Below, in pieces: positions 4,021 through 23,417 of a stretch of DNA of 35,102 nucleotides (position 1 is its first letter; each line of letters opens with the position of its first letter). Origin of the DNA: Roseobacter sp. HKCCD6576-2. GTDB taxonomy: Bacteria > Pseudomonadota > Alphaproteobacteria > Rhodobacterales > Rhodobacteraceae. The DNA lies in assembly GCF_013179285.1 (NCBI RefSeq), contig NZ_WVNW01000013.1:1-35102 (forward strand), given 5' to 3'. Position numbers and translations under genes: made by a program. The notes beneath the pieces are model-generated. The model saw only the letters and a program-made list of their open reading frames with translations, was not told the DNA's origin and made no database searches.

Positions 4021-4051
4021 AGCGCCCGGCACCGCTGTGCCCGGCGCTTCA
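4018..4051. terminator. Hairpin downstream of the ABM-domain gene
   Basis: TGAAGCGCCCGGCAC pairs with GTGCCCGGCGCTTCA around CGCT with one mismatch. It lies 20 bp past the stop of the minus-strand gene at 4072. The tract after the stem on that strand (TTTCTTG) is only partly T-rich, so termination efficiency is uncertain. Confidence 0.6.
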
Positions 4052-4071
4052 TATGGTGCAGAGTTTTTTGC

Positions 4072-4791: not shown

Positions 4792-4886
4792 CGTAATCTC
4801 CTTATCTGAGTGTCATCGTGTTGTTTCGATGTGCTCTTGTCCCGCACCAAAGGTGTGAACTGCCAATATGGGAATTCTATTCATCA

Positions 4887-4901
4887 ATAGATAAAATCTA
4901 T
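4887..4901. promoter_or_regulatory. Putative LysR-type operator (T-N11-A palindrome)
   Basis: ATAGAT-AAA-ATCTAT is a perfect 6-bp inverted repeat containing T-N11-A (4888-4900), the classical LysR box. It lies in the 160-bp intergenic region between the divergent ABM-domain gene and the LysR gene, about 50 bp before the LysR start. A looser outer palindrome (CATCA and TGATG) surrounds it. Confidence 0.65.
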
Positions 4902-4951
4902 GGTGATGACTTCGAAGTGCAGCGCGAAGGAGGCTGATTGAGGATACGAAA

Positions 4952-5824: not shown

Positions 5825-5921
5825 TTGATCACATAGCAGATGGGATGGATGGCTCCCGGCGCCGGTGCCGTAAAGCGACATAATGCAGGTGTCAAAGCCC
5901 GCTGATGAAAGGAGCAGCCAT

Positions 5922-6268
5922 ATGCTGGTGTCTGAGGCTGAAATCATCACCGGTGCGGCGGTGGTCGCCGTCATCGCTGGTCCCCAGCGGACAAGCTACG
6001 GATCATGGAAGAAACCATGTATGGCGGCGAGAGCATCTCCGCGGTTGCACGTCGCAATGGCGTGACCCCAAATCTGCTGTACCGTTGGCGGAAGTTGATG
6101 CTCGAAGGGCGGAAGCATCGCTGTTGCAGAGGACGACAGCGTCACCGGCAACAAGTCCGTTCGCGAAATGGAAAGTTGCATCCGGGAGTTGAAAAGCCAA
6201 CTCGGGCGCAAGACCCTAGAGAGAAAAGTCCTGGCGGAAGCATTGAAAAAGAGCCGCTCCAAAGACCT
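5922..6268 (+). pseudogene. IS3-family (IS2-like) OrfA, frameshifted
   Basis: An AAAGGAG site precedes an ATG that begins MLVSEAEIITGAAVVA. The matching family sequence then continues in a second frame as HRWSPADKLRIMEETMYGG, ISAVARRNGVTPNLLYRWRK and LMLEG. It then shifts again to GGSIAVAEDDSVTGNKSVRE and LGRKTLERKVLAEALKKSRS. That is a helix-turn-helix followed by the leucine-zipper-like segment of an IS2-type OrfA. Two frameshifts break it and no OrfB follows. Confidence 0.8.
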
Positions 6269-6441
6269 TGCTTGTGTAATATACGGCCCAGACCAGGTTT
6301 TTCTAGGCTGCGGATTGCTTTGAGTTAGGTTAATCCCTTTGTGGATCCGGTTTCTTTTATTGAGGCCTTCTGGCTGGATTGAGGTGGTGGAGCTACCGCT
6401 GCTGATCTAACGGCGAGCGCTTGTGATGGCCATAACCCACT

Positions 6442-6576
6442 CACCTCGATCCTGAAATCCGAGCCGCCGATTTGGCCCTCAGTGGCCTCCAACGTGTTTT
6501 CTTCCGACATTCGGCGATGTCGAGATGGGAATGGCCAATGGGATATCGCTTGACCTTCTGTGGTCTTCTCCCGACG
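6442..6576 (-). pseudogene. IS481-like transposase fragment
   Basis: Read on the minus strand, one frame gives RRPQKVKRYPIGHSHLDIAE, then CRKK. This matches the start of the DDE catalytic core of IS481-type and related integrase-core transposases, where family members typically read KRYPIG(Y/F)FHIDIAE. The frame then leaves the family and stops. The neighbouring 6269-6441 and 6577-6984 contain no reading frame I recognise. Confidence 0.55.
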
Positions 6577-6984
6577 GCGCGCCAATGCTAAGTGTTAGAG
6601 TGCCACCGCCCGCAACGGAGCAACTGCCAGCATTCGCCTCTTCCTGCGGGACCAACCTAGATACTCGTATCCAACTGAAATTGCCTTGGCAGTTTGGATC
6701 GTCCTTGACCCAATAGTGTTGATGATAACCCACTGTTGCCGCCCTATTCCTCGTAGTTCCACCATTCGAGAGCGTGACGGTTCAGTCATTTCAACCACTG
6801 TCGGCTAAGTCTACAGCATTGCTGTTCTGAGGAGTTATCTCCAACAAGGAATCCGCACCATCGACTTCAAATTCAGCCTCAATAGGGCGGATACCTGACC
6901 GATAGTCCTCATCCACATCGAAGCAGCTCAAGCCCGGCCCCGGAGAAATCTGCACTTTACGACTGATGGCTGCAACGTGCCGAT

Positions 6985-7111
6985 CATCGAGCCTAACAAC
7001 TCCGTCACAATCAATAACGCGTGGCTTCTTGTCGAGGGACTTTGGAAAGAAGGGTTCCAGACGTGTCATTCGCGCGTCACTCAACCAGAAAAGATCAGAC
7101 ATGTTCATCAC
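6985..7111 (-). pseudogene. IS5-family transposase N-terminal fragment
   Basis: The minus frame starting near 7102-7111 reads MSDLFWLSDARMTRLEPFFP, KSLDKKPRV, then diverges. W(L)SD.(Q)M.RLEPFFP.S.GKPRV is the N-terminal signature of IS5-family transposases. The following residues do not match the family, so the element is cut a little over 40 codons in. The region to the right (7112-7660) contains no supported gene. Confidence 0.65.
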
Positions 7112-7622
7112 TCATTTTTGAGCCGTGGATCAAACCAAAAACCGGAAAGTAATGGATCCTGAGCTCAAGTTTCGCCAGTTGATCTAAATACGCCAATTTT
7201 TGTATGTGCTAAAAAGGAGATGAGTAGCTGGTGGGACAGTAGAGAAAAGCATTCACCCAACACCTCCAGTTTCGACCGCTAGAACCAGGCTGTATTAAGA
7301 AATATTGAGGTGCTATCCAAAGATAAAAACCAACTATGGTTCGAGCGCACCAGCTGCAATAGGTGTGATAGAAAAGAGAAAGTACTGGTGCTTAAGCTCG
7401 GCATCTGGTGGGAGAGATTCAGGATGAATCTATTTGGTTTTGATATCCAGGTTTTAACCGTTTGTTCAGTTGGTCGAGTAAGGATGCTTGGTGAATCGTC
7501 AGAACTGATCGCTCAACATAGCTTTCGACACATCCAACAAAACCCTGATTTATGGGGCGACTGAATGGCGGCCGGCAGACAAAAGGAAATCGTCACATTG
7601 CAGTTTTATTAGACGATACGCA
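7112..7622. other. No supported gene
   Basis: An 84-codon plus-strand frame (7310-7564) exists, but it has no recognisable domain and no convincing ribosome binding site, and its composition differs from the clear genes here. It is probably degraded DNA between the IS5 fragment and the small lipoprotein gene. Confidence 0.5.
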
Positions 7623-7651
7623 CGGGCGGCTTTGTTGAGTAAAGCCGCCCG
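7623..7651. terminator. Perfect 11-bp hairpin after the lipoprotein gene
   Basis: CGGGCGGCTTT and AAAGCCGCCCG pair exactly around a 7-nt loop. It lies 8 bp past the stop of the minus-strand lipoprotein gene. No strong T-run follows on that strand, so it may be an intrinsic terminator of moderate strength or an mRNA 3' stabiliser. Confidence 0.7.
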
Positions 7652-7659
7652 CGAGTTGT

Positions 7660-7854
7660 TTACGATGTGGTCGGTTTACAGACAGTCCGACCTGCTTCGA
7701 CTATGGTCGGCTCTGTGTTCGCCGGGCAGGTTGCTGTGCCAAACTTATCATACTCGGGCTCGAACGTAATGTAACCCAACGTAGGTTCTGCCGGTTCCGA
7801 GCATGCAGCAAGAACAAGGGCAATTGCGCAAGCGGTAAAGGATTTTAGTCTCAT
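7660..7854 (-). CDS. Small lipoprotein, function unknown
   Basis: The 64-aa protein opens MRLKSFTACAIALVLAACSE. This is a type II signal peptide with lipobox L-A-A-C, giving a mature lipoprotein of about 47 residues from Cys18. The mature part has two more cysteines (TATCPANT and RTVCKPT) that could form a disulfide. AGAGGA lies about 9 nt before the start, and a strong hairpin follows the stop, so this looks like a monocistronic functional gene despite its decayed surroundings. The mature sequence matches no family I recognise. Confidence 0.7.
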   Translation of the reverse strand: MRLKSFTACAIALVLAACSEPAEPTLGYITFEPEYDKFGTATCPANTEPTIVEAGRTVCKPTTS

Positions 7855-8575
7855 TTCCGTTAGTCCTCTTCAAAACTTCTGATATTGATCAAGAACTCTG
7901 GGCCGATGTCAGAGCACAGCCTCCAACACCAACGCCGAAGCTGTTAAGATCACTCGTGGCGGTTTCCAGATTACAGTTCATTGGATTATTTCTCCATTTG
8001 TGGCTGGATCAACTCCAGCCGGGTTTTCGAGATCATACTACTGTTGTGTTGCCTGTCTCTTGGGTTGGTACGGCGAGGGGTTCTCCTCCCACTCTGTATG
8101 TCCTTAATTGAAGCAGTGGTCGTATTCCTCCTGTGTTGGGGTATTGAGGTACTCTTAGACTGATCTCGGCCCATCAACTGAACCGCCGAGCAATAGTGTT
8201 GGCATTGCCGCGCAAGCATGTTGCGAATCCATATGGAAAGACGTGGCGTGTCATATCTATTAGAACTTCACGGGTATCGACGTGGGGGATATTCCAATCA
8301 CTGAAGAAGGGGCTTCTTCCACAATCCCACTCGCTTTCCGCCGAAGAGCAACTTGTCGCACGAATCTCCGTTCGGACGTCTTCTAGACAGCCACGTCCAG
8401 GTGGTTTTAGCTGTGAGAACGCGGTCGTCATTCGGGTAAAACGGGCTTGGCTGCACTCGAGTGAAAGCGGATCGTCCACCTGCACGGTGTCAATAAGCAG
8501 GTAAAGAAACTTTGCCTGCGCCGCGGTGCAGCACGATCAGGCCCGCTGTCCAGAGAAAACGCCATGGGTGCACGC
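7855..8575. other. No supported gene
   Basis: Frames of about 60-103 codons exist on both strands, including a 60-codon plus frame at 7981-8163 rich in hydrophobic residues but beginning with TTG. None has a domain, a good ribosome binding site or plausible context. The region reads as decayed sequence. Confidence 0.5.
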
Positions 8576-9195
8576 CTATTCAGATTGTTCTTGCTGGGCT
8601 GTGACCAGTTCGGCAATGCACAAAGCGGTCCAAACGTTTACCTGTTCTTGGCCTGCGCGTTGATCGTTGATCTGCTCAGATATCATCTGCGTTTCCAGCC
8701 TCATCACATAGCGTAGCGCTTGCTGATGCTGCCGGCGGACGGCCGCAAGACTGGCATAGATATAGGTCCACACCACATCACCTTCGGCGGCATAGGATTT
8801 GGCAAGCTCAAACAACCCCATGGCATTGCTTTAAAACGCAGTTTGCATGAACATGGCACACGCTCACTCCGGATCAGTTGATACGCCGTCGCCGGTTGCG
8901 GGCATTTGACCGACGAGTTTGCGGGCGACAATGTTCCCTGCTTGGCGGCCCGTTCTAAGTGCGCGTGCGTAGGGTCGGCATCAAGCACCACGGTCAAATG
9001 CAGGGGGCTCAGATAGAATGCCGCGTCACCCGTTTCAAAGCTGGATTGGAACTCTGCCGTTGCGGTTGCAACATCACCAACATCCAAGTCCACCAGCTTC
9101 GTTTCAGTATCCGCCTTGGCCATCGACCCAACAACAGCGGCAACGATAAGGCAATAAGCGCTAGCGAAGGCGGGCAAATCAATGATTTTGATCAT
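8576..9195 (-). pseudogene. Exported Sel1-repeat-like protein, frameshifted
   Basis: An ATG at 9193-9195 starts MIKIIDLPAFASAYCLIVAA, VVGSMAKA, a signal-peptide-like N-terminus. It is followed by DLDVGDVATATAEFQSSFET and THAHLERAAKQGTLSP. The Sel1-like continuation is in another frame: MGLFELAKSYAAEGDVVWTY, IYASLAAVRRQHQQALRYVM, then RLETQMISEQINDQRA, ending at 8576. Sel1/TPR-type helical repeats usually read AA.GD..A..W..LAA. At least one frameshift near 8820 separates the halves, so the gene is probably dead. The family typically scaffolds envelope protein complexes. Confidence 0.5.
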
Positions 9196-10010
9196 CGTGG
9201 CCCGTTTCCAGCTTTGGCGTGGCAGAGCGAGACGACAAAAGGCGCGATGCTGCTGGAGTGAGAGACAGCCCCGTCCGGGCATCGTAATGCAGCAGGTTGA
9301 TGCTGTCTGCATCACGGCGCCGCGAAGGATTCGAAGAGTCAAATTAGTGAACTGCCTGAGCCGCAAGAAGAAAAAGACCAAATTCACAACGGATGTTTGC
9401 AATCTTTGATTGAGCATTCAGACAGGCCTTCATGTTAAGATGCGAGCTCTTTCAGATTACCCCACTCGAGAGGCGAGTAAGGGTGAGTAGACGTAGTAGA
9501 CTAGGAGAAGCATCCACCAGACGCCTCTCTCGGTTCAGTTTTAGGACCAGGGTGGTTTGTTGGAAAATACCAAGAAGCTATACATCAATAGACACTGGCT
9601 ACCGCGGAGTTGTATCACCCACTAGAAAAGGCGATGCATTTCGTATGCCCGACGGAGCACTACGAGAAAGCTTTTGAAAACAGCCGTCTAGCGGCGCTCA
9701 AGCAGTATTCAGGTAGAGTGAAACCAGGATCGTTCTGGGCGACCTCGCGGGCAAGGACAGCCTTGCTGATCACGCCATGGCTCGTCGTTATCTTCGGAGT
9801 TTTGGATATCTCTCTGCGCAGCGAACCTTTTCCGCGCTTGTGTTGTGATCGATTGGCGCTCAGGCAAAACGAACCGAGTTTAAAAAACCAAGCCACGCAC
9901 TTTGTTTGTTTGCGACGGCAGGCACCCACTAGGCATACGCCCGGCGGAGGGAGCCCAAAAGACTGGCCAACCCGTGTGAACTCACAAAGCGCCCCAAAGC
10001 TGCTGGGCGA
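9196..10010. other. No supported gene
   Basis: The region between the Sel1-like pseudogene and the subtilase stop has only short anonymous frames. At 9588-9607 it contains ATAGACACTGGCTACCGCGG, a relative of a motif seen at 3559, 12610 and 34728. The part next to 10010 may be the degraded remainder of the subtilase gene. Confidence 0.45.
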
Positions 10011-11615
10011 TCAACGCAAAGGGCGGCTTGGCCACCTTGAGGTATGCTGGATGGGCCACGGCCACCGGAGCGTTGCTATGGTATGGGTGTGTTCGAAAAA
10101 CGAATTGTCGGCAGTGGCCAATAAGCGATTGCGCAATTGTGGTGCCGACAGGCTGGGAAAAGCTTCCGCCAACAGTGCGATTGCCCCAGCAACTTGTGGG
10201 GCGGCCAAAGAAGTGCCCCCAGATCTCCCATAATCTGAGTCTGAATCTTCACGGCTACTTGCTGCCCGCCCCACCGAACCGTCTGCCCCAATACACCATC
10301 GAGCAGATTGCCAACACGCGCTGGAAAATCGAATGATTGTTCCAAAACTGTCCCTTGCTTGGTCGTAGGGGACGCGTAGATTGATGACGGCCAACCAGCC
10401 TTGCTCAAGTTCCGGAATCACAACCGGCAGGGCTTCCAAATACAAACTTTCCGAGCGACGGCTGTTGTTGTCAGTCGCAAAAACCACAACTGCTTTCTTC
10501 GTGTAGTCTATGAGGTCTGCTTCGAAAGCATCCCCATATACAGCGGTGAAATATGATCTGCCTTCTAAAATCGAAGCAACTAAACCCCAGGAGTTGTTAT
10601 GAACAATGGCACCGTGTTCTGCTGCATCTGCAATGGAAGCTTCCCAATTTGTTGGCTCGTCTCCCATGGAACCCCAGCCGAATAGCCGCAGATTAGCATT
10701 TGGAGCAACACCTTCGATCTGACCAAAATCATCAAGGCCCGCGGCGATTGATGCGACTGCCGTGCCATGACCATCGACAACGGAGTTGTTCACGTTCGTG
10801 ACGGTTCGGTCCCCGGCTGTAAATGCATCATGCGAAAACTGGAAACCACTATCGAAGATCGCGATTGTCTGGCCAGCCCCCGTCAAGCCTGCCCCGCGCG
10901 CATATTCCAGATTTATTGCGGAGTAAGCCCAATTGTTACCACTCCGCTGTGCGACAAATGTCGTGGCATTTCGCGCTTCGCTGACTGCTGCCGCCAAGGT
11001 TTCGATTTCTTCGAAATCGCGTTCGGAAGTGAGCTCAATCAGCGTCCCGGCATCGTTATAGAGATATCCCCCGGTATAATTATCAGGCTCAGCTGGCGGG
11101 TCTACTGGTTCGGGTGCAGGGTCGATTGGATCAACTGGATCAGTCGGATCGGTGATTGGATCAGGTGATGGACTGGGGCTTGGAGAAGGTGATGGACCAG
11201 GGTCTGGTTTGATGGGGGTGGGAGGAGGCGATGGCTCTGGATCAGGATTCTCATCTCCGTCATCGCCCGCAAGTGAAATTGCAGTTGCCATTCCGACGAT
11301 CCCGAGAATAGTCATCGAGCCAATTCTGGAGGTCTCCCCCGCATTTGGCTCCGGAAAAGAAAAGCGACGCGTGTCTGGCGCCCGGTCTAACGTTCGACTG
11401 AGGTAGTCCTCCAAAATCTCGGGTCGGTTCAGGAGGATGTATTCGTGTGCATCCGCGAAGGTCGATGGATCTCGCGCATGTTCGCGAACGAGGTGGTTCA
11501 AGACCTGTTGATCTGAGTAGGAGGTGAGTTGACCTGCGTAGATGTTTGCAGAGACGGAGGTCGCCAAGGTGATAATGGCTGTCGTGGTCAGGGCTAACGT
11601 CCTAAACAGGCGCAT
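10011..11615 (-). CDS. Subtilisin-like serine protease of autotransporter type, lacking a beta-barrel
   Basis: The start is the ATG at 11613-11615 behind AGAGGA; the same frame is open further upstream, but that part is not coding. The 534-aa product has a signal peptide (MRLFRTLALTTTAIITLATS, VSA), a hydrophobic segment at about 99-117, a Pro/Asp-rich linker (about 120-178, with PSPSPSPSP) and an S8 peptidase domain. The triad is visible: Asp255 in IAIFDSGFQFSHDAF, His283 in DGHGTAVASIAAG and Ser469 in SGGTSLAAPQVAGA; oxyanion Asn is in HNNSWG near 341. After LLATADNSFFEHTHTI the sequence loses family resemblance and stops at 10011. No C-terminal autotransporter barrel follows, so the gene is probably 3'-truncated. 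Without the barrel the protease would stay periplasmic or membrane-attached. The 300 bp before the start (11616-11922) holds no gene and should include the promoter. Confidence 0.75.
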   Translation of the reverse strand: MRLFRTLALTTTAIITLATSVSANIYAGQLTSYSDQQVLNHLVREHARDPSTFADAHEYILLNRPEILEDYLSRTLDRAPDTRRFSFPEPNAGETSRIGSMTILGIVGMATAISLAGDDGDENPDPEPSPPPTPIKPDPGPSPSPSPSPSPDPITDPTDPVDPIDPAPEPVDPPAEPDNYTGGYLYNDAGTLIELTSERDFEEIETLAAAVSEARNATTFVAQRSGNNWAYSAINLEYARGAGLTGAGQTIAIFDSGFQFSHDAFTAGDRTVTNVNNSVVDGHGTAVASIAAGLDDFGQIEGVAPNANLRLFGWGSMGDEPTNWEASIADAAEHGAIVHNNSWGLVASILEGRSYFTAVYGDAFEADLIDYTKKAVVVFATDNNSRRSESLYLEALPVVIPELEQGWLAVINLRVPYDQARDSFGTIIRFSSACWQSARWCIGADGSVGRAASSREDSDSDYGRSGGTSLAAPQVAGAIALLAEAFPSLSAPQLRNRLLATADNSFFEHTHTIATLRWPWPIQHTSRWPSRPLR

Positions 11616-11922
11616 GATTATTCCTCTGCCTTGCCCCACGAAAACTGTAACCGTTCGGACGATCGCGAGCCTTCGTTTTTTGACGGGCCAAAGCACCGCT
11701 TGCGCTTGGAACGTTGCTAGCAAAGTTACGCACGGTTGCCAGATCGCATCTCTGGACCGGTCATTCGTCGATCGCAGAGCTGTCGTGCTTGCGGATCGTG
11801 GCTGCCAGCATGAAAGCGACCAATAGGCCGTTGGTTCGAGACACAGGAATTCCGAGAGTTTAGTCGTCGATTCGGACACAAGAACAGCCAGCTTCCCAAA
11901 TACCAGATCACGCATGGCCCCT

Positions 11923-12240
11923 CTAGAACACCACCTTGAGGCCTGCGCTTGCGCTGAGGGCGCTGGCATCCCCGGCATTGCTGAGCCCGGTGAAATAGGA
12001 GGCTTCATCCGAGAGCGAACCGCCGTTAGGGATCGGCCAGGTTGCTTTCGCGCCGTCCGTTCCGATCGGGGTAAAAAGTGCAAAGGGGTTGCAGCTGATC
12101 TTGAACCGTTGACGGCCACATCGGACGTTGCGGGAAGCGCGGATGATCGCGTCAGGCCGTCCCAATCGGATACCGGGGTCGGGTTGCCCACTGACCCGTG
12201 CGCGATGGCCGACCTGAGGCCGGATGTCAGACTGTAAGGA
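11923..12240 (-). pseudogene. Detached C-terminal tail of an outer-membrane beta-barrel (autotransporter-like)
   Basis: The minus frame contains NPFALFTPIGTDGAKATWPI, then NGGSLSDEASYFTGLSNAG and DASALSASAGLKVVF, then a stop at 11923. Alternating hydrophobic residues and a terminal Phe are the signature of the last strand of an outer-membrane barrel. Further upstream (12240-12170) another frame reads SLTSGLRSAIAHGS, so the fragment appears frameshifted. There is no start codon or signal peptide attached. It overlaps the left part of direct repeat copy B. The family assignment rests on composition and the terminal motif only. Confidence 0.4.
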
Positions 12241-12845: not shown

Positions 12846-15800
12846 TCAGAACAACCCAAGGCCCCTGCCCCGCGACCGTCCACGCTCCGGATGCACCCCG
12901 TCTGCCACCCGCTCCGCGTGATCATTCCATGGGTAGAGGGCAAAGCCGATAAGCCCATCTTTCGTGAGCGTTTTAAGCGCATCTGCGGCGACCTTGCGCT
13001 GTTGTAAGGGGATATGGGTCAGGCTGTCCGGCCCCTTTGTATCTGCTTTTGCCAGCGCCTCAATCTCCCTGTAGGTGAAGGCCTTGTAGAGTTGCGGCAG
13101 TACGTCCCGTGCGGCGCCTGATCGATCATCCACGGTCGACAGCTGGTCCAGCACGTCACTCCGCGCCCGTTCAATCTCCTGCGCTCTCTGCGGGGATCCT
13201 GTGCCCAAGGCGTGCGACAATCCCTTCGCCAGATCATGTGGCACGCCCGGCAGATGAGCAAGCCGTGCTGCCGTCCATTCGAGCTCGGTCGGCGCTCCAT
13301 ATCGGTCCACACCCTTCGCCACGGCGTCCTCTACTTCGTCGTCATACATGTCCTTGACACGCTGATGTTGCGCAGCCATCGGATGTTCGATGCCCGAACC
13401 AGCATGATTCACGTAGCGCCGGAACAATTGCTCTTTAAACATCGGTCGCCGCATTCCCTGCCACTTCGGATCTGTATCCTTGTTTGCATCGTAATCCGCC
13501 TGTTCCCCTGCAATGAGCGCCCGACCAAGCTCCAGCTTCGCATCATACCCGGCACGCGCCGTCGCGATCTTGCGCGCTGTCGCTTGTACTTGGTCCTCGG
13601 GCACCTCCGCTGCGTCGGCTCGGTTCAGAAGACCCTGCAGCTCATCCAGAAGGTCCCGCTTATGCGCAGGATGATCCGAGGGCAGATGCTCGGTGATGGC
13701 CATGGCCATCTGCAGGATCGCGCCCGATGGCTTCGGCACAGACCGCTCCGCTGTCGCCGCCGAGGCAGTCCTGGTTTCGACCCCGCCTTCGCGGCGCAGC
13801 ATCTCCTGCGCCTTTACCTTCACCCTGGCCTCTCTTTGAGCCGACCCGTCGCGCATCGATCGCCGTGCGGCCGCGTAAGATCTCGCGCGGGCCCGGCGAC
13901 GTTGCCCGTCCAACCCGAACATATCCAGCGCATCGCGGGTCAACCTGTCATTCGATGGATCGAGATTGGACAGGAAGGCCCCCAACCCGCCTCCACGCGG
14001 TGTGTAGGGCAGCGGCCGACGCGATTGCGTCCGGCGCGTCTCTTGCGGTGGCTGGATCTCCGGATAAGTCGGCAGATCGCGTGTCGAACCGCTTGGCGCC
14101 ACCAGCTCCTGAACGCGATCCGACGCCCGGGCGTCCTCCGCCCGCTGCCCATAAAGCGCCAAACCGTCCGCAAAGAGATGGGCGATGCCGCTCTCCCCCA
14201 GGGCTTCCGCACTCAGATGTCCCCGCGCCAGGATCCGGGCCGTCGTCAACGCACGGCCGTCCTCATCCCGGCCCGCCAGCTTGACGGCCAATCGATCCGC
14301 CCGTTGCGGCAGATCCTTGGGCGCCTGGCGCAGAATCCGCCGCCATTTGCCCACATCGGTCAACGCCCGCACATGTCCCTCCAGCGCCAGCAGGCCCGCG
14401 CCGTCAGGCGCCCTGCCATGGCGCAGGGTGGCCGCCCCGATCACCTCGGCCAGCACCTCCCCTTCAAGCCCTCGCGGCGCCACCTCGCGAGACGGATCCT
14501 GCCCAAGACCCGCGATCTCGCGCAAACGTCCCATCGCCGCGGCAATCCCGTCGGGCGCCGGGTCGGCCACGATCTCCCGACCCTGCCCTTGCATCGCCTG
14601 CCGCGCCGCAAGCGCTGGCTCGAAGCCGTAATCGAGCACCGTTTCAGCCGTGGCATCCCGCTGCAGGATCCGCGACAGCACGTCCGGCATACGGGTTTCC
14701 GAGGCAGGCACGACAATGCTCAGATCCTCGCGATGCAGTCGCGCCGCGGAGGTGAAGATTTGTTTGGACATGCCCGGCCCGGCCAGCAGATGCACGCTGT
14801 CGCGCGCCTGCCCGATGGCACCATGGATCGTCTGGGCGAAGTCGAACCGCCAGTCGGGCATGTCTGTGTCCGGCGCCAGTCTCACGTCACGGGACGTTCC
14901 ATCGGCCTCCATGAGCCGCAGCATCTGGCGCCCGCGTGGATCCGTCCCAAGATATATCGATCGGCTGCCGGGCCGGATATAGACCCGTTGCGCGCCGCGG
15001 GTCGCGGTTCTGTCTTCGACGCGCCCGCCCCCCATGAACTGGACCCGATCCCCCGGCTTCAGACCCGCAAAGCTCCCCTCTTCTGCCTCCTCAAACCCCG
15101 CGCGCGCTGGATCACGGGCATCCAATACCTGCCGGATCGCACCCGTGAGCTGTCCCACCTCCGCCCGCGACCAAGCCAGGGCCACCTTGTCTTGCGTCGG
15201 ATCTTCCACGAACCGCTCAGCCAGCAGAGCGGTCGCCTTGCGGGCAGTCCCCCCGGCAAGCAGCACGCCATCCTCCTGCAGGATGTTCAGCGCGACCTGC
15301 GCCACCGTGCCGCCCCCGACGAGCCCCCCCATGGCCACAGCCCGACGCTGGTTCCACCGGAAGCTGTCATCGAGCTCGGCCACACCGATCCGGGCGGCCA
15401 GGGCCCGGACCACGGGTCCGGCTTCCAGCGGCGTTTGCACACCATCATCCATCAACGCCACAAGCTTCGCACCGGCCTTCTCCACCTCGCGCAGCACCGG
15501 GGCAATCTCCTGGCTGCCCAGGCGCCCGGCATCGTCGAGAATAACCACCGTGCCCGGATCAAGCCGCAACTGGCCGGACGCCAGGCCGGACGCAAACCCC
15601 CGCAGGGTCCGCGGCCGTTCAACACCTGCCGCGCGCAAGGCATCGAGCCCGGCCCCCGACGGCGAGACGGCCAGGACCGACCAGCCCGCCTCGCGATGCA
15701 GCTCTGCCGTGGCCGCGGCCACACGGGTCTTGCCGCTGCCCGCGCCCCCCCGGATCAGCCGCAACCGTCCGCCCCGCCCCGTGTAGCTCACTGCTTTGGC

Positions 15801-18800
15801 CTGTGCCTCGGTGAGCCCCAACCCGCTCAACCGCGCGGCGATGGCTTTCGAGACATCGGGCACCTCGTCGGGGGAGGACGAAAGAGCCAGCCGGATACCG
15901 CGATCGACTGCATCAAGCTCCCCCCGCAGCTGCGTCCGCGTGGTATAGACCCGGCCCCGCCCGGTGGTGCCCGGATCGTCGGAGAGCAGGATCAGGTCGG
16001 GATGTGACATCGCCTCGCGGAAGGCCCGCAGGAACGTGTCCGGGTCGGCAATCACATGGGCCAGCTGCGCGGCCACGTCTTCGGCCCGCAGCACCGACTG
16101 TCGCCGGATCACATCATCGACCACCTCTGTCGGGCGGGCGGCGTAGCGCGCCCCGTCCTCGCGCAAGACCGGCGCCCCCGGCTGCCAATCGGCTGCCAGC
16201 AAACCTGCGGTGCGTTCGGCAATCCCCATCAACTCCGCATCGCCTGTCAGCGCAACGAGCCGGCGGCTGCGCTCGGCACCACGCCAATCCTCCCGCAGTG
16301 CAATCTGCGCATCCGTCACCGTCGGCACCATGCTGGCCCCCGGATCGGCCGGGCCATCGGGCAGCTCTACGGAGAGATGGCCCGGCGCTTGTGCCATCGC
16401 GACCAGATCAGAGACACGCTCGAAATGCCCCACCCGTCCGAACACTTGCAGGGTGTCACTGTGGCGCGAGAGGGCCACATAGGTGGCATGCCGGTGCATC
16501 AAACGATGCGGCAGCACGAACACATCCTGCGCCGTCAGCCCCTGCGATTTGTGGATCGTGGACGCAAAGCCGTAGTCGATATCCCGGAAGCTCTGCAGAT
16601 CAAGCGTCACGGGATCGGCCGTCCGATCGAACAGGACATCGATCTCCGCCGCGCGCGTGGCCAGGACCGTGCCAAAACTCGATCGCGGCAGGTTGAGATC
16701 GCGATGCGGCTTTGTCAGCAGGATCCGATCACCCACGCCAAGCTCCAGCGGCACGCGCTCCTGACCGGCCCGTCCCCCTGGCGCCGTGGTCCGGCGGGTG
16801 AAGCTGCCATAGCTACGCTGGCTGCTGCGATCCACGATCCCGCGCGCCAGGGCCTCGGCCCGGATCAGATCGTTCAGCCGGTGCACATCGCGATTGGTAT
16901 AAGCGATGGCGACCCGGCTGCGCGCCGGATCCGAACCCTCGAAGAAGGCGCCGGCCAATGCCGCGAAGGGATCGGCCCGGTCTTCCGGCCGCAGCCGCAG
17001 CGCCCCCTTGCTGTCATAGTAGTCGATGGCGGTCCGCACCCCTGCCCCACCGCGCACCAGCATCTCCGTGGCCTCGCGTTGCAGCGCATCCTTCTGGCGC
17101 ACCACCGTATCGATCAGAACCGTCTTCGCCGATCCGACCGCCCGCTCCGCCACATTCCAGCCGGGCAGATCCGCAACGGGTTGCAGCTGGTCGGGATCCC
17201 CGATGGCGATCAGCTTGCCGCCCATGGCCAGGATCTGCGCCTGCAGGCGGCCCCATTGCCCGGCGCCGACCATCCCGGCCTCATCCATGAGGAACACGAA
17301 CCGGCCCGGATCCGGCGCTTCCCCGCGCGCCCACCGGGCCTCCCAGGCCGCCAGCGTGGCCGTGGTAACGCCCTCAAGCCCGGCCAGCTCCCGGGTGGCC
17401 TTGCCTGACGAGGCGCCGGCCAGGACAGCCACGCCGCGCTCTTGCCAGATCCGCGCCACGTCGCGCAACGTGTGGGTCTTCCCGGTTCCGGCATGACCTT
17501 GCACAAGCGTCAGCCGATCGGCGTTCAGCATCGCCTCGGCCGCCTGCCGCTGCATTGGGTTCAGACCCTCCATCTCCTCCGGGCGCAGGACCGGCACCTC
17601 CCCCGGCGCAAACCGGCCATTGGCCAGCAGGCGGGTCTGCTCCGCACTCCGCTGAATCTGATCGAGCCGCGCGACCGTCACGTATTGCGGTGAGCCGTCC
17701 GGTGCCACCTGATCGAGACGCACGAGCGCACCGGAGGCCATGGCGCGATCTCCCAGGCGGCGCAGCTCCGGTTCCGTCACCTGCCGCCCAAGCCGGGCAC
17801 GCAGGGCTTGCCGGACGTCATGGTCGGTGAAGACCGCGCGGTCGCTCTGCAGAAGCGCAACGATGTGATCGGGGTGGTTCTGAAGATAGGCGGTGTTTGC
17901 TGCACGAGCCTTGGTGGCGGAAAGCGGGATCTTCGGCAGGCGCGTCAACCGCGCCACCTCCTCTGAGTCCGGTCCTTGCGGTGGATGGGTCGGCGCACGT
18001 GGTGTACCCGGGATCGGCAGGTCGGGCGCCTGCTGCGCCGCAGCCTGCGCCCGACCGGGATCAAACCCGTAATCCGCGGCGGCCCGCGGCGCGCGCTCCC
18101 GCGCCAGGATACGGCCAAGGACCGCGCGGACCTCACGGTCCGCCGCTGGCACAACCAGGTTCAGCGAGGATCGTGATGTGGCAACACCCGTGGCAAGAGT
18201 CTCGCGATCCATGCCTGCATCCGCCAAAAGATGCACACTTTCATGGCGGCGACCCGCGCTGGCCGCGATGCTCGATGCAAAGCTGTAATGCCATGGCGGC
18301 AGCGGCCCTTCCGGTGCGACCCGTATCTCCCTCGAGCCGACCGCCCGCCCGTCAGCACTCATGTCGGCCACGCGCAACCGCAGGACCCCGTCCGGATCCC
18401 GGGCCATCACCTCCGCCCGGGCGCCGCGTTGAACCACTTGCTCACCTGCCGGGTCCCTCTCCGGGCTGCCATAGACACCGCCGGTTGCGAACCGGATACG
18501 ATCCCCGGGTTTGAGACCGGCCAGGGGACCATCGGGGATCTCTTCTGCTGCCACGCGCTCCGGTCGAGTCCGATCAAGCTCCGCCCGGATGGCAATTGTC
18601 AGGTCGTCAGCCGCTCGGCGCGACCACGCGAGCGCGATCTTGTCGTCTGCAGGTTCGGCCACATAGGCCCGGGCCAGATCGGCCATCGCCCGGTCCTGAG
18701 CGCCTGAAGCCTGGACAAGTCCCGCCGCACACGCGGCCTCGATCGCGCCGGCGTCTCGCGCCTCCGGTTGGCGTATGGCAGCGAGAAGGTCCCTGGCCGG

Positions 18801-21800
18801 GCCGGACACGCCTTCCAGGCCCGAAAGCTCTGCCGTACCGATCCGGGTGGCCAGCGATCGGAACACAGGACCCGGATCCAGCGGTCGGCGCTGCGGGTTC
18901 TGGAAGGCGATCAGCTTGGCACTCATTGCCTCGATCCGTGCCAAAAGCACGTCGGCCCGTCCGATCCCGAGACCATTTGCATCATCGAGCACCACCACCG
19001 CCCCCGGGGCGTCCGGACCCCGATAGGCCATAGGCTCGGCCAGGAACTCCGCAAAGGTCAGCGCAGCCACCCCCTCTTCGGCCAACGCCCGGCGCCCCGC
19101 CTCGGTTGGGTTGATCACTGTTACCACGCTGCCGGCTGTCTCATGGGCGCGCGCCGTTATCGCTGCGAGGCGGGTTTTTCCGCTCCCGGCCGGCCCCAGA
19201 ACCAGCCGCACACCGCCGGGGGCCAGGGCATACTGCAGGGCCGTGCGCTGATCCTCGGAAAGACCCTCGACCGGCATCTCGGCCGCAACATCGATGGGGC
19301 TCTGCGCCAGCTTCACCCCGCGATCGAGCGCTGCCAGCTCGGCGGCCAGATGGCGGCGCGTTGTGTAGACCCAGGGATCGGCATCTTTGCCCTCCTTCGA
19401 TCGCGGCAAGGCCACCAGGTCCTTATGCCCCATCGCCTGCCGGAAGAGCCGCAGGAACGTATCGGGATCCTGGATTGGGTTTGCCAGCACCGTGGCCACG
19501 TCATCAGCGCGGAACACCGTCTGGCGGGCGAGAAGATCCGAGATGACGGCCTGTGGCGCACCGGTGTAATCCCGGTTCGGATCGACCATGGCCTGCGCAT
19601 CGAGGATCGGGTCGGTCTCCGCATAGTCGTCGCGCAGGAGGCCCGCCACGCGCGTGGCCACCGCCATCAAATGCCGATCGCCCACAAAACCAACCCGCGT
19701 CCCCGTGCCGCGCGGACCGTTCCAATCCGGTCGATTGAAAATCTCGGCCGCGGGTGACTGCACCAGGGTGGGGGTTTCAAAGCTTGTCGGCGTCTGCAAC
19801 GGGGCCGGCAGGCGCGTGGCCATCGCGACCAGTGCGCGGGCATTCTCCAGATGGTCCTTGCGACCGAACACCGTCAGCGCGTCGCGGTGGCGCGACAGCG
19901 CCACATAGGTGGCATGCCGATCCATGCGCCGATGCGGCAGGAGCAGCACCCGGTCCACCGACATGCCCTGCGACTTGTGGATCGTCGCGGCATAGCCATA
20001 GTCGAACTGGTTGAACCGCGCCGCATCGATCTCAACCGCTTCGCGCGCGTCATCCATGAGGATCGAGAACGCCCCGTCCCGAACCGACGTCACCGTTCCG
20101 AAGCTGGAGCGCGCCAAATCCAGGTCACGATGCGGTCCCGTCAGCATGAGACGATCGCCCGGGCTCAGCTGGATCTCCGCCGCGCGCCGATGCGCACTCT
20201 CCAATCCATCCTCGTCATAGCCCCGATCCATGCGCGAGATGATGAAGCGCCGCCCGGACCGGGCCACGGCCCCGACCGCCTGTCCCGCCCGTCGAATGGC
20301 CGCATTCAACGCTTCGACATCCGCGTTGCTGTAGCCAAGCGCGATGCGGCTTGGACGGCCGCGCCCGCCCGGGTCCTGACTCCAATACTCCGAGGCAAGC
20401 ACCGCCACCGGGTCTCCGCCCACCGTCTCAAGCCGCAGCGCCCCCCGCTCCACGTAATGCGAGATGGCCTCTGCAATGCGCCCTTTTGCCAGCGCCGCGG
20501 TCGCCGCGCGGTCCCCTGCATCCCTCTGCCGGACCACCAGGTCGATCGCCGGCACATCGCCGGCCTGGGCCTCGGCCAGGGCCCATCCGGAGAGATCGAG
20601 CACGGGCGGCAATTGCTCCGGGTCACCGACGGCCACCAGCTTGCCCCCCATCGCCACCACCTGCGACTGGATGCGGGACCATTGATTGAGCCCGACCATA
20701 CCGGCCTCGTCCATGATGAAGACAAACCGGCCTGCCTCCGAGTATTGCCCGCGCGCCCATTGCGCCTCCCATGCCGAAAGCGTACGGGCCTCGATCCCGT
20801 CAAGCGCATTGAGCTCCTGCGTGGCCTTGCCGGAGGGCGCACCGGCCAGAACACGCACGCCGCGGGCCTGCCATGCCCGCGCCGTCTCACCGATGGTGAA
20901 GGTCTTGCCCGTTCCCGCATGACCTTTGACCAGCGTCAGCTGATCGGGCCCAAGGATCGCCTCGGCCGCATTGCGCTGGCCCGGATTGAGAGCTGGCGAC
21001 AGGAAACGCTGCACCGGGCGGGCGGCTGCGATCGCCGCGCGCACAGCCTCTGCGCCCGCCCGTTGATGCGTGTCGTTCAGATCGCTTTTGCTGCCGCTCG
21101 GCTCGGGCGCCACAGCAATGCTGAGCCGCGCGCCATTGGCCACGTGCTGCGCCAGGGCTTTGCGGAAGGCCAACCCGGCCGGACTGTCGGGCGCGTCCCG
21201 GTCCGGCGCGAAGATCACGTCGCGATCGTCAGGCAGCGGCGCAGTCGCGAACCCTGACACCCCGAAGACGGCCCAGGTCTCATGGCCGGTGGCCTGCCAG
21301 ATCGAGAGCGCCGCCTCCGGGCTCTCCGCTACCACCAATGGCCCATCCGGGGTCCGTGCCGGAAAGCGGGCCGGATGCCCGCTCACGGTCCCGAAGGAGG
21401 GCTTGCGGATCTCCGTATCGACCCGCACGCCATCCTCTTGCACCAGGATGCGTTGCCCCCCCATGATCCGGCCATCCCCATCCGTGGCCCAGACCACCAG
21501 GGCGGCATGGCGGGCACCTACCACCTCCAACTCGGGAACCGGCGGCAGACAGGCAAGCTGCGCCTCGGGCATGTCCGTGATCGCCCGGGACGCCAGGTAG
21601 GCCGCGCCCGGGCTCCCCGAAGCCGGTGCCGCCAGCTCGACGAGGGACTGCACAAGATTGGCCCGCGCCGCCTCGATCTCGGCTTTGGCGGCCTCCGCCT
21701 CGCGCGCCCGCTGTGCCTGCCGGGCTTCCAGCGTGCTGGTATCGATCCGGGCCTCTGTCGACAGGCCGGCATAGCGCGCCGCCGCCTCCAGAACGCGTGG

Positions 21801-23369
21801 GAAGTCGGCCTTGGCTGCGCTGAGCCCGCAGATCTCCGTGGCCACGAGATCCAGGAGATCGCCCCCCTCCCCGATCTTGTGATCGAACCAGAGCCCCCGG
21901 CGAGGGCCTTTCATCTGCATCTCGAAGGAGGCCTGGTTCTTGGGGTTCCACTTCGCTGCCCCTGGTCGCACGGGGGGACCGTGAACCTTCACGAACAGAT
22001 CCTCGGCACGATCCAGCAGCGCTTCGCGCACAGCGGCCGCAGATGGACCGGAGCGTGAATGTCGCCGCAGCGGTGCCTTGACTGCCTTGCGTTTGGCTGC
22101 CGCGGCCTCCTCGGCCGCGCGTTCCAACTCGATCGGGGCCGTATCGATCAGGATCGGACCTGTGCCGGTTTCGATGGGGTCCTGCGCGGCCAAATCCTCC
22201 GCCACAGCCAGCCGTCCCGTCGCCAGCACCTGGGCGTCCTGCGTCAGCTGCCAGGCCTGTTGGCTGCGCGACCGGGTGACGAACAGCGCCTCCTCTTCCA
22301 CATGTTGCCCGTGTACTTCGAGAAGCTCGGGCGAACGCATCGCCTCCGCCAGAAGCTCCCGCACCTCCACCTCCAACTCGAACCGGGATTGCTCGTAGTC
22401 CTCCGCGTTTTGCAGCTCCGGGACCTCTGCGGGGTCCGGTCTCAGCTGCTTCATCAGGGCCGCCCGCACATCCGCTTCCGAGAACGTGCCCTGCCGCGAC
22501 TGCACCACCGCGAGGATGTGTTCGGGGTTCGATCGAATGTAAGCTTGGTTCTGTTTGCGCACGTCCTGGCAGCGCAGTTTTTCACGCGGCAATTCCCCCC
22601 CGCGCTCGGCACGCTCGGCGATATACGGGTGGTAGTTCTCCGGCTCCAACTGCAGCCCCTGGTCCTTCAGGGTGCGGTGATCGACCCGCGCGTTTGAGCC
22701 CACACGCTCAAGCGCGAGATTGACATGCTGCGCCCATTCCAAGCGCCACTGCCGCAGAAGCGCCGACGTATCCCAGGAGCGGTTCTTGGCGCCCCAATCC
22801 CCTTCTCCGAGGTCGCGCAGACTGAGCATCAGATGCGCATGCGGATTGCCGTCACCCTTGTCATGGACGCTGATCGTCACCACCATTCCACTGTCTGTGA
22901 AAGCGTCCTTTACGAAGCTCCGGAGCAACACCTTTTGATCTGCCAGATCGAGCTCGTTGGGCAGGGACAAATCGACCGTGCGGAAGTACCGAGCCTTCTT
23001 CTCATGCTTGTTCAACCGACACTCTGAGATCTCCACGGAATTGGCCAGAGTCTCCGCAACGCGCACAGCGGCGCGCCGGATTGCCTCGTCGTCGGACAGC
23101 ACCTGTCCGGCCGCCTCTGCCTCGGCCAGAACCTCTTCGAAGGTCCGGACCAATGCGATGTCGCCGAACGCATCCCGCGCCCAATCCGGAGCGTCCTCGG
23201 GCAGCATGATATCCGCGTATTTAAGCTCGTCAGACTTCGCCGTGTAGTCAGTCGTCCTGTTGGTGCTGTCGGACTTGTATTGCGTCGCCATGCGATAGGC
23301 CAGAGCGGCCACGGCCGACTGGCCTTTGCCTCGTGAGATGATACCTGCGCTGAGTCTGAAGATGGCCAT
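12846..23369 (-). CDS. Giant MobA/MobL (MOBQ, TraA-like) relaxase fused to Toprim/primase-like and duplicated helicase modules
   Basis: The chosen start is the ATG giving MAIFRLSAGIISRGKGQSAV, the standard start of MobA/MobL relaxases; a TTG eight codons upstream is in frame. The product is about 3,507 aa, against roughly 1,100-1,500 for Ti-type TraA. Residues 1-220 form the relaxase, with Tyr in AALAYRM and metal-binding His in GDGNPHAHLML near 178. A helical segment (NPEHILAVVQ) lies near 282. A Toprim-like region covers about 480-770 (VVAESPEAALSIW near 683; FAPDRDAPD near 720). Then come four P-loop cores: GHAGTGKT (about 818), GPAGSGKT (1392), GHAGTGKT (1957) and GGAGSGKT (2541). Cores 1 and 3 also have MDEAGMVG, IHKSQG and YVALSRH, as in RecD/TraI helicases. 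Cores 2 and 4 carry LDDA. The C-terminal 600 residues have no motif I recognise. It should nick oriT and unwind DNA in conjugation. No T4SS genes are nearby. Confidence 0.9.
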   Translation of the reverse strand: MAIFRLSAGIISRGKGQSAVAALAYRMATQYKSDSTNRTTDYTAKSDELKYADIMLPEDAPDWARDAFGDIALVRTFEEVLAEAEAAGQVLSDDEAIRRAAVRVAETLANSVEISECRLNKHEKKARYFRTVDLSLPNELDLADQKVLLRSFVKDAFTDSGMVVTISVHDKGDGNPHAHLMLSLRDLGEGDWGAKNRSWDTSALLRQWRLEWAQHVNLALERVGSNARVDHRTLKDQGLQLEPENYHPYIAERAERGGELPREKLRCQDVRKQNQAYIRSNPEHILAVVQSRQGTFSEADVRAALMKQLRPDPAEVPELQNAEDYEQSRFELEVEVRELLAEAMRSPELLEVHGQHVEEEALFVTRSRSQQAWQLTQDAQVLATGRLAVAEDLAAQDPIETGTGPILIDTAPIELERAAEEAAAAKRKAVKAPLRRHSRSGPSAAAVREALLDRAEDLFVKVHGPPVRPGAAKWNPKNQASFEMQMKGPRRGLWFDHKIGEGGDLLDLVATEICGLSAAKADFPRVLEAAARYAGLSTEARIDTSTLEARQAQRAREAEAAKAEIEAARANLVQSLVELAAPASGSPGAAYLASRAITDMPEAQLACLPPVPELEVVGARHAALVVWATDGDGRIMGGQRILVQEDGVRVDTEIRKPSFGTVSGHPARFPARTPDGPLVVAESPEAALSIWQATGHETWAVFGVSGFATAPLPDDRDVIFAPDRDAPDSPAGLAFRKALAQHVANGARLSIAVAPEPSGSKSDLNDTHQRAGAEAVRAAIAAARPVQRFLSPALNPGQRNAAEAILGPDQLTLVKGHAGTGKTFTIGETARAWQARGVRVLAGAPSGKATQELNALDGIEARTLSAWEAQWARGQYSEAGRFVFIMDEAGMVGLNQWSRIQSQVVAMGGKLVAVGDPEQLPPVLDLSGWALAEAQAGDVPAIDLVVRQRDAGDRAATAALAKGRIAEAISHYVERGALRLETVGGDPVAVLASEYWSQDPGGRGRPSRIALGYSNADVEALNAAIRRAGQAVGAVARSGRRFIISRMDRGYDEDGLESAHRRAAEIQLSPGDRLMLTGPHRDLDLARSSFGTVTSVRDGAFSILMDDAREAVEIDAARFNQFDYGYAATIHKSQGMSVDRVLLLPHRRMDRHATYVALSRHRDALTVFGRKDHLENARALVAMATRLPAPLQTPTSFETPTLVQSPAAEIFNRPDWNGPRGTGTRVGFVGDRHLMAVATRVAGLLRDDYAETDPILDAQAMVDPNRDYTGAPQAVISDLLARQTVFRADDVATVLANPIQDPDTFLRLFRQAMGHKDLVALPRSKEGKDADPWVYTTRRHLAAELAALDRGVKLAQSPIDVAAEMPVEGLSEDQRTALQYALAPGGVRLVLGPAGSGKTRLAAITARAHETAGSVVTVINPTEAGRRALAEEGVAALTFAEFLAEPMAYRGPDAPGAVVVLDDANGLGIGRADVLLARIEAMSAKLIAFQNPQRRPLDPGPVFRSLATRIGTAELSGLEGVSGPARDLLAAIRQPEARDAGAIEAACAAGLVQASGAQDRAMADLARAYVAEPADDKIALAWSRRAADDLTIAIRAELDRTRPERVAAEEIPDGPLAGLKPGDRIRFATGGVYGSPERDPAGEQVVQRGARAEVMARDPDGVLRLRVADMSADGRAVGSREIRVAPEGPLPPWHYSFASSIAASAGRRHESVHLLADAGMDRETLATGVATSRSSLNLVVPAADREVRAVLGRILARERAPRAAADYGFDPGRAQAAAQQAPDLPIPGTPRAPTHPPQGPDSEEVARLTRLPKIPLSATKARAANTAYLQNHPDHIVALLQSDRAVFTDHDVRQALRARLGRQVTEPELRRLGDRAMASGALVRLDQVAPDGSPQYVTVARLDQIQRSAEQTRLLANGRFAPGEVPVLRPEEMEGLNPMQRQAAEAMLNADRLTLVQGHAGTGKTHTLRDVARIWQERGVAVLAGASSGKATRELAGLEGVTTATLAAWEARWARGEAPDPGRFVFLMDEAGMVGAGQWGRLQAQILAMGGKLIAIGDPDQLQPVADLPGWNVAERAVGSAKTVLIDTVVRQKDALQREATEMLVRGGAGVRTAIDYYDSKGALRLRPEDRADPFAALAGAFFEGSDPARSRVAIAYTNRDVHRLNDLIRAEALARGIVDRSSQRSYGSFTRRTTAPGGRAGQERVPLELGVGDRILLTKPHRDLNLPRSSFGTVLATRAAEIDVLFDRTADPVTLDLQSFRDIDYGFASTIHKSQGLTAQDVFVLPHRLMHRHATYVALSRHSDTLQVFGRVGHFERVSDLVAMAQAPGHLSVELPDGPADPGASMVPTVTDAQIALREDWRGAERSRRLVALTGDAELMGIAERTAGLLAADWQPGAPVLREDGARYAARPTEVVDDVIRRQSVLRAEDVAAQLAHVIADPDTFLRAFREAMSHPDLILLSDDPGTTGRGRVYTTRTQLRGELDAVDRGIRLALSSSPDEVPDVSKAIAARLSGLGLTEAQAKAVSYTGRGGRLRLIRGGAGSGKTRVAAATAELHREAGWSVLAVSPSGAGLDALRAAGVERPRTLRGFASGLASGQLRLDPGTVVILDDAGRLGSQEIAPVLREVEKAGAKLVALMDDGVQTPLEAGPVVRALAARIGVAELDDSFRWNQRRAVAMGGLVGGGTVAQVALNILQEDGVLLAGGTARKATALLAERFVEDPTQDKVALAWSRAEVGQLTGAIRQVLDARDPARAGFEEAEEGSFAGLKPGDRVQFMGGGRVEDRTATRGAQRVYIRPGSRSIYLGTDPRGRQMLRLMEADGTSRDVRLAPDTDMPDWRFDFAQTIHGAIGQARDSVHLLAGPGMSKQIFTSAARLHREDLSIVVPASETRMPDVLSRILQRDATAETVLDYGFEPALAARQAMQGQGREIVADPAPDGIAAAMGRLREIAGLGQDPSREVAPRGLEGEVLAEVIGAATLRHGRAPDGAGLLALEGHVRALTDVGKWRRILRQAPKDLPQRADRLAVKLAGRDEDGRALTTARILARGHLSAEALGESGIAHLFADGLALYGQRAEDARASDRVQELVAPSGSTRDLPTYPEIQPPQETRRTQSRRPLPYTPRGGGLGAFLSNLDPSNDRLTRDALDMFGLDGQRRRARARSYAAARRSMRDGSAQREARVKVKAQEMLRREGGVETRTASAATAERSVPKPSGAILQMAMAITEHLPSDHPAHKRDLLDELQGLLNRADAAEVPEDQVQATARKIATARAGYDAKLELGRALIAGEQADYDANKDTDPKWQGMRRPMFKEQLFRRYVNHAGSGIEHPMAAQHQRVKDMYDDEVEDAVAKGVDRYGAPTELEWTAARLAHLPGVPHDLAKGLSHALGTGSPQRAQEIERARSDVLDQLSTVDDRSGAARDVLPQLYKAFTYREIEALAKADTKGPDSLTHIPLQQRKVAADALKTLTKDGLIGFALYPWNDHAERVADGVHPERGRSRGRGLGLF

Positions 23370-23417
23370 TGCCGGTAGCATACAGGTGAACAAAGAAATT
23401 AGAACAATTTTTTTGTG

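Follow-up and report, generated by a model that had tools for sequence, protein, structure and literature searches.

The window analysed here, the entire contig C5 of assembly G000 (35,102 bases), encodes a giant protein that is likely the conjugative relaxase of a mobile element bearing a type IV secretion system (T4SS) in Rhodobacteraceae and close kin. In one chain, a MobA/MobL-type relaxase is followed by a primase cassette, two tandem pairs of helicase cores and a C-terminal domain that is also present on other proteins.

Domain architecture of the giant relaxase

The gene (23393..12846, minus strand) forms a single open frame of 3,515 amino acids without internal stops; it begins with a TTG start, in-frame ATG codons follow at residues 5 and 9, and a protein mass of approximately 380 kDa is estimated from the length. 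A first-pass annotation, made from sequence alone, had placed the gene end at 23369, i.e. at the ATG of residue 9, whereas the true frame extends to 23393; counted from that ATG, its landmark numbering agrees with the present one to within about 2 residues. Its assignment of a MOBQ relaxase, a Toprim/primase region and four P-loop cores to this one gene was confirmed by Pfam, HMM and motif analyses. Seven of the 12 family proteins (that of the window included) were mapped; L039, L040, L042, L043 and L044 were omitted as near-identical or broken. In each of the seven, the domains run as relaxase, pre-domain, primase, A, B, pre-domain, A, B, Ct1, Ct2, with four Walker A motifs per protein.

The MobA/MobL (MOBQ-type) relaxase domain comprises residues 17-280 (22554..23345; this and all following features of the gene lie on the minus strand) and is supported by the family HMM, by motifs and by Pfam PF03389 (MobA_MobL; residues 25-259, E 4.7e-42). 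Motif I with its tyrosine is located at residues 30-35 and the histidine motif NPHAH at residues 183-187, which we take to hold the roles of the motif I Tyr and the HUH histidine residues in the relaxase; among the mapped proteins, motif I is present in six of seven (in the seventh, the N-terminus is missing from the frame) and NPHxH in all seven. The NCBIfam model of Ti-type TraA (TIGR02768) is matched with 1,011 bits, its cut-off being 590.45; the score for the MobQ equivalog NF041496 (162.9 versus 200) and those for the longer TraA subfamily models remain below the respective cut-offs. A TrwC-family relaxase domain was absent from the 25 of 34 Pfam rows examined, MobA_MobL being found instead, which speaks against the MOBF type.

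The relaxase is followed by a helical pre-domain (copy 1, NPEHI; residues 282-396, 22206..22550; segment comparison and HMM) and by the DUF7146/Toprim primase cassette (residues 449-799, 20997..22049), which is recognised by Pfam (DUF7146 at residues 576-677), HMM and motifs. The Toprim glutamate motif (residues 687-693) and the DxD motif (residues 729-734) of the cassette are present in 7/7 mapped proteins, from which primer synthesis can only be inferred; Pfam Toprim_3 was matched on the homologous primase cassette of L097, a coupling-protein fusion (see below).

Helicase cores and duplication of the helicase unit

The helicase region starts with core A1 (residues 802-1183, 19845..20990; Pfam, HMM and motifs), which carries the full SF1B motif set, and the degenerate core B1 (residues 1385-1775, 18069..19241; HMM and motifs), in which Walker A and DDA are retained. 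After pre-domain copy 2 (NHPDHI; residues 1833-1929, 17607..17897; segment comparison and HMM), the pair recurs as core A2 with the full SF1B motif set (residues 1944-2325, 16419..17564) and the degenerate core B2, again with Walker A and DDA (residues 2534-2922, 14628..15794), both identified by HMM and motifs; Pfam AAA_30 is found in four stretches of the protein. The Walker A motifs are positioned at residues 824, 1400, 1966 and 2549, IHKSQG at 1138 and 2280, and YVALSRH at 1163 and 2305, the offset between copy 1 and copy 2 being 1,142 residues for the A core and 1,149 residues for the B core.

In an alignment of 11 A-B units from six proteins (five copy-1 and six copy-2 units), the motifs GxAGxGKT, MDEA, GDxxQ, RQ, HK[S/A]QG and VA[L/M][S/T]RH were all present in 11/11 A cores. 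Walker A was retained in all 11 B cores and DDA in 10 of them (NEA in the remaining one); the A-type motifs III, V and VI (GDPxQL, KSQG and xRH) were found in none of the 11. Since the B cores lack these three motifs, each protein contains two complete and two degenerate helicase cores. The AlphaFold2 model of A1-B1 (pLDDT 79.3, pTM 0.51) matched F TraI (5n8o) as the top PDB entry by E-value (7.5e-29, 1,171 columns including gaps), followed by RecD2, Pif1 and RecD. A TraI-type pair, i.e. two tandem RecD2-like cores of which one is degenerate, is thus supported by the motifs and the fold matches of the model. Superposition on 5n8o was weak (TM 0.35/0.25, rmsd 33.0; single helicases such as RecD2: TM 0.62 of the target); in consequence, the A-B make-up matches that of TraI, but a TraI-like packing is not established.

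Residues 801-1820 and 1944-2965 share 43% identity in an alignment of 1,036 columns that scores 671 bits, whereas none of 100 shuffles exceeded 28.5, and the claim of the first-pass annotation that a two-NTPase unit is duplicated was thereby upheld. A full-length self-comparison by blastp gave the trivial match only; the diagonal was obtained from segment comparisons. The proposed recurrence of the NPEHI/NPDHI segment held as well, but its copies at residues 289 and 1839 are separated by ~1,550 rather than ~1,145 residues, because the primase cassette (~440-800) intervenes before the helicase in copy 1 only.

According to segment comparison, the identity amounts to 52% between A1 and A2, 38% between B1 and B2, and ~27% between A and B cores; the simplest history consists of two duplications in turn, from a single core to A plus B and then a doubling of A-B. 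The nucleotide comparison of unit with unit (blastn) yielded four short blocks of ~72-78%, so that the duplication of the helicase unit looks old. In the tree of helicase cores, the B1 copies (0.999), the B2 copies (0.891) and the A1 copies (0.832) each formed a group, the A2 copies being unresolved as one group, and in no protein did its own A copies or its own B copies pair together. The unit duplication therefore appears to be older than the spread of the family. As a separate observation, L036 and L045 contain a further copy of the second half of A1, the latter also having a tandem partial repeat of B2.

The C-terminal domain Ct2

Downstream of B2, a conserved region Ct1 (residues 2970-3059, 14217..14486; HMM) precedes the all-helical domain Ct2 with its Arg-rich tail (residues 3227-3514, 12852..13715; HMM and model), to which a role as T4SS delivery signal is ascribed by inference. 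The fold predicted from 10 Ct2 sequences is all-helical (pLDDT 90.1, pTM 0.85), and its model found nothing in the PDB better than E 1.3; a Ct2 profile search of PDB sequences gave a single, unrelated match (E 0.31). The Arg-rich tail in which Ct2 ends carries, in its 25 terminal residues, a net charge between +1 and +5 (7/7 giant proteins). Identity of Ct2 with the BID domain was rejected, there being no fold match at E <= 0.001 and no BID row among the Pfam rows examined.

Three further proteins ending in Ct2 are encoded, each on the minus strand, in one Aestuariivita metagenome-assembled genome (MAG; G581): an ArdC-N/metallopeptidase protein of 665 aa (L088:8040-10034), a 314-aa protein (L090:17396-18337) and a TrwC relaxase-helicase of 1,517 aa (L139:4540-9090). 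Ct2 fragments occur in G581 and G583; on other proteins the domain was not seen in G000, G580 or G582, so that the cargo proteins derive from one assembly only. The sharing of Ct2 by relaxases of two families and by an antirestriction protein follows the pattern of a translocation signal, as with BID domains (PMC6509941). From this domain sharing it is inferred that Ct2 may serve as a T4SS delivery signal, possibly a new one. In L036 and L045, partial Ct2 repeats precede the final Ct2.

Distribution of the family

The scan of genome contigs yielded 17 loci, namely 11 of the giant family (L035-L045), the primase-only L046 and five ordinary TraA (L047-L051). The 11 giant loci derive from four assemblies other than that of the window: two Aestuariivita MAGs (L035 and L038 in one, L037 in the other), the uncultured Rhodobacteraceae MAG CATOSB01 (G580; seven copies, L036, L039, L040, L042, L043, L044 and L045) and Ruegeria atlantica HKCCD6212 (L041). 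The five carrier assemblies are accordingly G000 (the window's genome), G580, G581, G582 and G583, a MAG with two giant relaxases. The frame exceeds 3,500 aa in 8/11 related loci and measures 2,711-2,791 aa in the other three; the long frames of L040 and L045 lack the first ~100 residues. Homologues above 3,000 aa in Rhodobacterales, for which the first-pass annotation had proposed a search, thus exist as continuous frames in independent assemblies. G580, a MAG of 7.2 Mb, contains four VirB4 genes besides its seven giant relaxases; some of the giant copies are broken or shortened, and one pair is 99.9% identical over 19.8 kb. Recent spread and a mixture of strains are indistinguishable here as the origin of this copy number.

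When 394 genomes of the family Rhodobacteraceae were sampled with a relaxase-primase query (two candidates scored per genome), 27 matched (E <= 1e-20), and frames above 3,000 aa were present only in G000 and G029. By its coordinates, G029 is the same assembly as G581. At a contig end in G021, a short match of 279 aa (48% identity with the primase) may derive from one or the other kind of primase fusion. The B profile was matched in 310 of 385 genomes of the class; among the matches inspected, G000 alone had a frame above 3,000 aa, the largest elsewhere being 2,547.

In 72,556 plasmid records, residues 1-2998 as query matched at least 5,000; the 60 places examined were each shorter than 3 kb and corresponded to a single ordinary relaxase, and four records reached 80% coverage via joined pieces. 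The B1 core matched 87 records, all below 60% identity (the 30 inspected being annotated as TraA or MobF relaxases or hypothetical proteins), the primase cassette matched 9, and no match to Ct2 was found in the 72,556 records. An ordinary plasmid family was rejected on these grounds, i.e. the lack of a Ct2 match, the B1 identities below 60% and the single ordinary relaxases behind the matches to residues 1-2998. A viral origin was likewise not supported, as no close relative was confirmed in the viral contigs (one pattern match, unrelated). The giant relaxase is a rare variant of the TraA/TraI-type relaxases that is associated with one T4SS lineage. No relaxase with duplicated helicase pairs was recognised in the open-access literature searched (by title and abstract opening; subscription journals and preprints were mostly outside the search).

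Genomic context and association with a T4SS

In the window, the relaxase gene is flanked to the right by genes for a DctM transporter, NMT1, an aconitase-like protein, IclR, PEP mutase, an amidase and an outer-membrane barrel, and to the left by LysR, an S8 protease, an autochaperone domain and a transposase-like fragment (all Pfam); the neighbours that could be named thus have mainly metabolic, regulatory or secretory roles. This fragment was the only mobility gene recognised by Pfam among the 16 neighbouring ORFs, and no tRNA was found in the window; a circular contig was rejected since a terminal overlap is absent. The stretch 4000-12200 shows a lower GC content (0.47-0.55) and few confident genes, contains the transposase-like fragment (6005-6325) and the S8 protease, and looks like a decayed insertion zone next to the GC-rich relaxase gene.

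The T4SS of the window's own genome lies on a separate contig (C56), and its cluster includes a primase 53% identical to the cassette of the relaxase. Since Pfam PF03135 missed the VirB4 clade concerned (matching in G000 and G582 only, and at other loci), a VirB4 from the locus was used as query. Relatives of the G582 VirB4 (47-53%) were found in G000, in G581 and at four places in G580, while G583 yielded none of this type; together with G582 itself, the T4SS clade is therefore present in 4/5 carrier assemblies. In three of the five, the relaxase is linked to VirB4, coupling protein and channel genes on one contig: G581 C68 (relaxase 30364-41310, T4SS cluster ~50334-88729), G582 C3 (relaxase 55636-67320, T4SS up to 29106) and G580 C8 (relaxase 534643-546696, T4SS matches 571988-591082). 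Of 28 genes in the G582 region, 20 match G581 C68 and 17 match G000 C56 (1e-5), the order being mostly kept. In the 394 family genomes, VirB4 (E <= 1e-100) occurred in three (G000, G029 and G698) and the giant ORF in two, both among those three; the VirB4 of G698 is more distant (37%), and a giant relaxase is absent there. The association with the T4SS, like the sharing of the C-terminal domain, had not been part of the first-pass annotation.

For ten proteins of the G582 region, Pfam reported T2SSE (twice), T2SSF, CagX, P-loop_TraG (VirB4), TrbI and TrbL (twice, both narrowly below the curated cut-off); of the remaining proteins, one was unmatched and one is a coupling protein that carries DUF7146 and Toprim_3 as a fusion. 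This coupling protein of VirD4/TraG type with its C-terminal primase (Pfam; L097:5043-9206, identical with G582:C3:24943-29106) has a 1,349-aa homologue in G581 (C68:50334-54380; 60.5% to the coupling-protein part) in which the primase HMM is matched as well; in G000, where the coupling protein has 865 aa, and in G580, coupling protein and primase are separate and ~1 kb apart. Two tyrosine integrases flank relaxase and T4SS in G581, and a RepC gene lies on the far side of one integrase; the region is read from these genes as an integrated or plasmid-borne conjugative element.

GspE- and GspF-like proteins are encoded beside the channel genes (G582:C3:1912-4610; Pfam), with homologues on G000:C56 and G581:C68. 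Pilin-like and secretin-like genes of the T4SS cluster, guessed by eye, are a hint that a type IV thin pilus is possible.

Comparison with known relaxases

The giant protein resembles Ti-type TraA (MOBQ; TIGR02768) in its MobA/MobL relaxase, pre-domain and SF1B helicase, which occur in the same order; in contrast to the one helicase match of TraA (five tested), it contains four cores in two units, a primase and Ct1/Ct2. Indeed, the five ordinary TraA (L047-L051) and the TraA of Ca. Megaera gave one significant helicase match each, and the earlier statement that known TraA/TraI proteins carry one active helicase and at most one degenerate copy held where tested.

With TraI of F/R1 (MOBF), the giant protein shares a relaxase-fused pair of RecD2-like helicases of which one is degenerate. 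F TraI contains one vestigial and one active helicase, the vestigial one first (PMC5422253), whereas the order in the giant protein is complete to degenerate; moreover, its relaxase is of the MobA/MobL type, two pairs are present rather than one, a primase is added, and the pair cannot be superposed rigidly. On oriT, two molecules of F TraI, a nicking form and a helicase form, are positioned on either side of nic, and two molecules may be needed according to the authors (PMC5422253).

In Rickettsia TraATi, a Toprim primase is located at the C-terminus, which its authors called unique so far to rickettsial relaxases (PMC4564193). Rickettsia TraATi and Ca. Megaera TraA (L137) are similar to the giant protein in the fusion of MobA/L relaxase, helicase and Toprim primase, but in Ca. 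Megaera TraA the primase (866-1208) is C-terminal of a single helicase (359-708), whereas in the giant protein the primase precedes the helicases and these are duplicated. A relaxase-helicase-primase fusion is therefore already known from TraATi, and the giant family represents its occurrence outside the rickettsiae and in another domain order.

Polyvalent proteins are likewise very long and multidomain, include primases, helicases and ArdC-N, and are thought to be delivered with DNA (PMC5512222); the sections of that work bearing on the question describe other domain sets (MTase-SF2 helicase, UvrD), and a relaxase with a helicase pair in two copies was not seen there. BID domains of alphaproteobacterial relaxases and effectors resemble Ct2 as a C-terminal helical domain with a positive tail common to varied proteins (PMC6509941); Ct2 differs in its size (~290 versus ~100 residues) and has no BID match in sequence, fold or the Pfam rows examined.

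Proposed function and alternative explanations

In the conjugative reading, the N-terminal HUH relaxase would nick the transfer origin and stay on the 5' end, a step inferred from its intact motifs. The two tandem helicase pairs would load onto DNA and unwind it; their motifs are shown, their activity is inferred. The Toprim primase may act in the recipient, on the complementary strand, or else prime synthesis within the donor, again by inference, and the suggestion of the first-pass annotation that one polypeptide could prime and unwind is a fair but undemonstrated one. Ct2 and the Arg-rich tail would bring the relaxase to the cognate T4SS by way of its coupling protein, as inferred from domain sharing. 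Finally, two pairs on one relaxase might supply in cis the second engine of F TraI, which is an untested hypothesis. Against the conjugative reading stand the separate contigs in G000, the near absence of mobility genes around the relaxase in the window, the lack of such a VirB4 in G583, the weak superposition on TraI, the broken or shortened frames of several copies in one MAG and the small size of the sample, in which one of the two positives (G029) coincides with G581 and the third VirB4-bearing genome (G698) has no giant relaxase.

A natural two-pair relaxase in one chain would offer a direct test of the model of two TraI molecules, and the occurrence of primases on the relaxase and, within the same elements, fused or close to the coupling protein bears on the site of second-strand priming. 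Translocation of a relaxase is reported to require its unfolding (PMC5826034), and one of ~380 kDa would therefore be a demanding T4SS substrate. The giant relaxase suggests a compact all-in-one engine for gene movement between cells. A bolder version holds that one chain nicks, unwinds, crosses the T4SS and primes the second strand in the recipient, that its pairs replace two TraI molecules, and that Ct2 defines a new class of delivery domain, present also on an antirestriction protein and an unrelated relaxase; on balance, this version as a whole is less likely than not.

Among the alternatives, it remains possible, though less likely, that the protein is an ordinary TraA-type relaxase whose second helicase unit is redundant baggage of a duplication, without any new mechanism. 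The single helicase of ordinary TraA proteins and the additional partial duplications in L036 and L045, which indicate a helicase region prone to duplicate, would agree with this. However, the catalytic motifs are intact in 11/11 aligned A cores, and the missing pairing of copies within proteins suggests that both copies were retained since before the family diverged.

It is unlikely that the protein mainly replicates its own element as a rolling-circle replicase, conjugation being secondary. Rolling-circle replication needs a nickase, a helicase and a primase. The location of the relaxase apart from the T4SS contig in its own genome and the seven copies in one MAG, several of them near-identical, would fit a replicase; on the other hand, the contig of L037 already has RepC and ParA/RepB-type genes, the relaxase is associated with one T4SS clade, and Ct2 is common to a TrwC relaxase and an ArdC protein, both of transfer-linked families.

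An assembly or reading-frame artefact fusing two genes, which the first-pass annotation had named as a possible refutation, could be argued from 3/7 copies of the CATOSB MAG with 2,711-2,791 aa and from the truncated N-termini of L040 and L045, but is all but excluded by continuous frames longer than 3,500 aa, present in the window as well as in 8/11 loci from four other assemblies, and by the same domain order in 7/7 mapped proteins. The high copy number in one MAG and a window without T4SS genes had pointed to a Helitron-like or stand-alone transposon, a reading that was dropped because the T4SS shares the relaxase contig in three assemblies.

Two minor observations concern the surroundings of the giant relaxase. 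A small conserved protein of ~65-70 aa with the core TRYxRVGVxFENxxxxTGExF is encoded near the giant relaxase or within the T4SS cluster (L041:7241-7594, L036:8024-8509 and, recognised by eye, G000:C56:31325-31522 and G581:C68:70229-70720). Antisense to the relaxase gene, the window contains an open frame of 931 aa on the plus strand (13212-16007), and antisense frames are also seen in the relatives; these are most simply explained by the high GC content.
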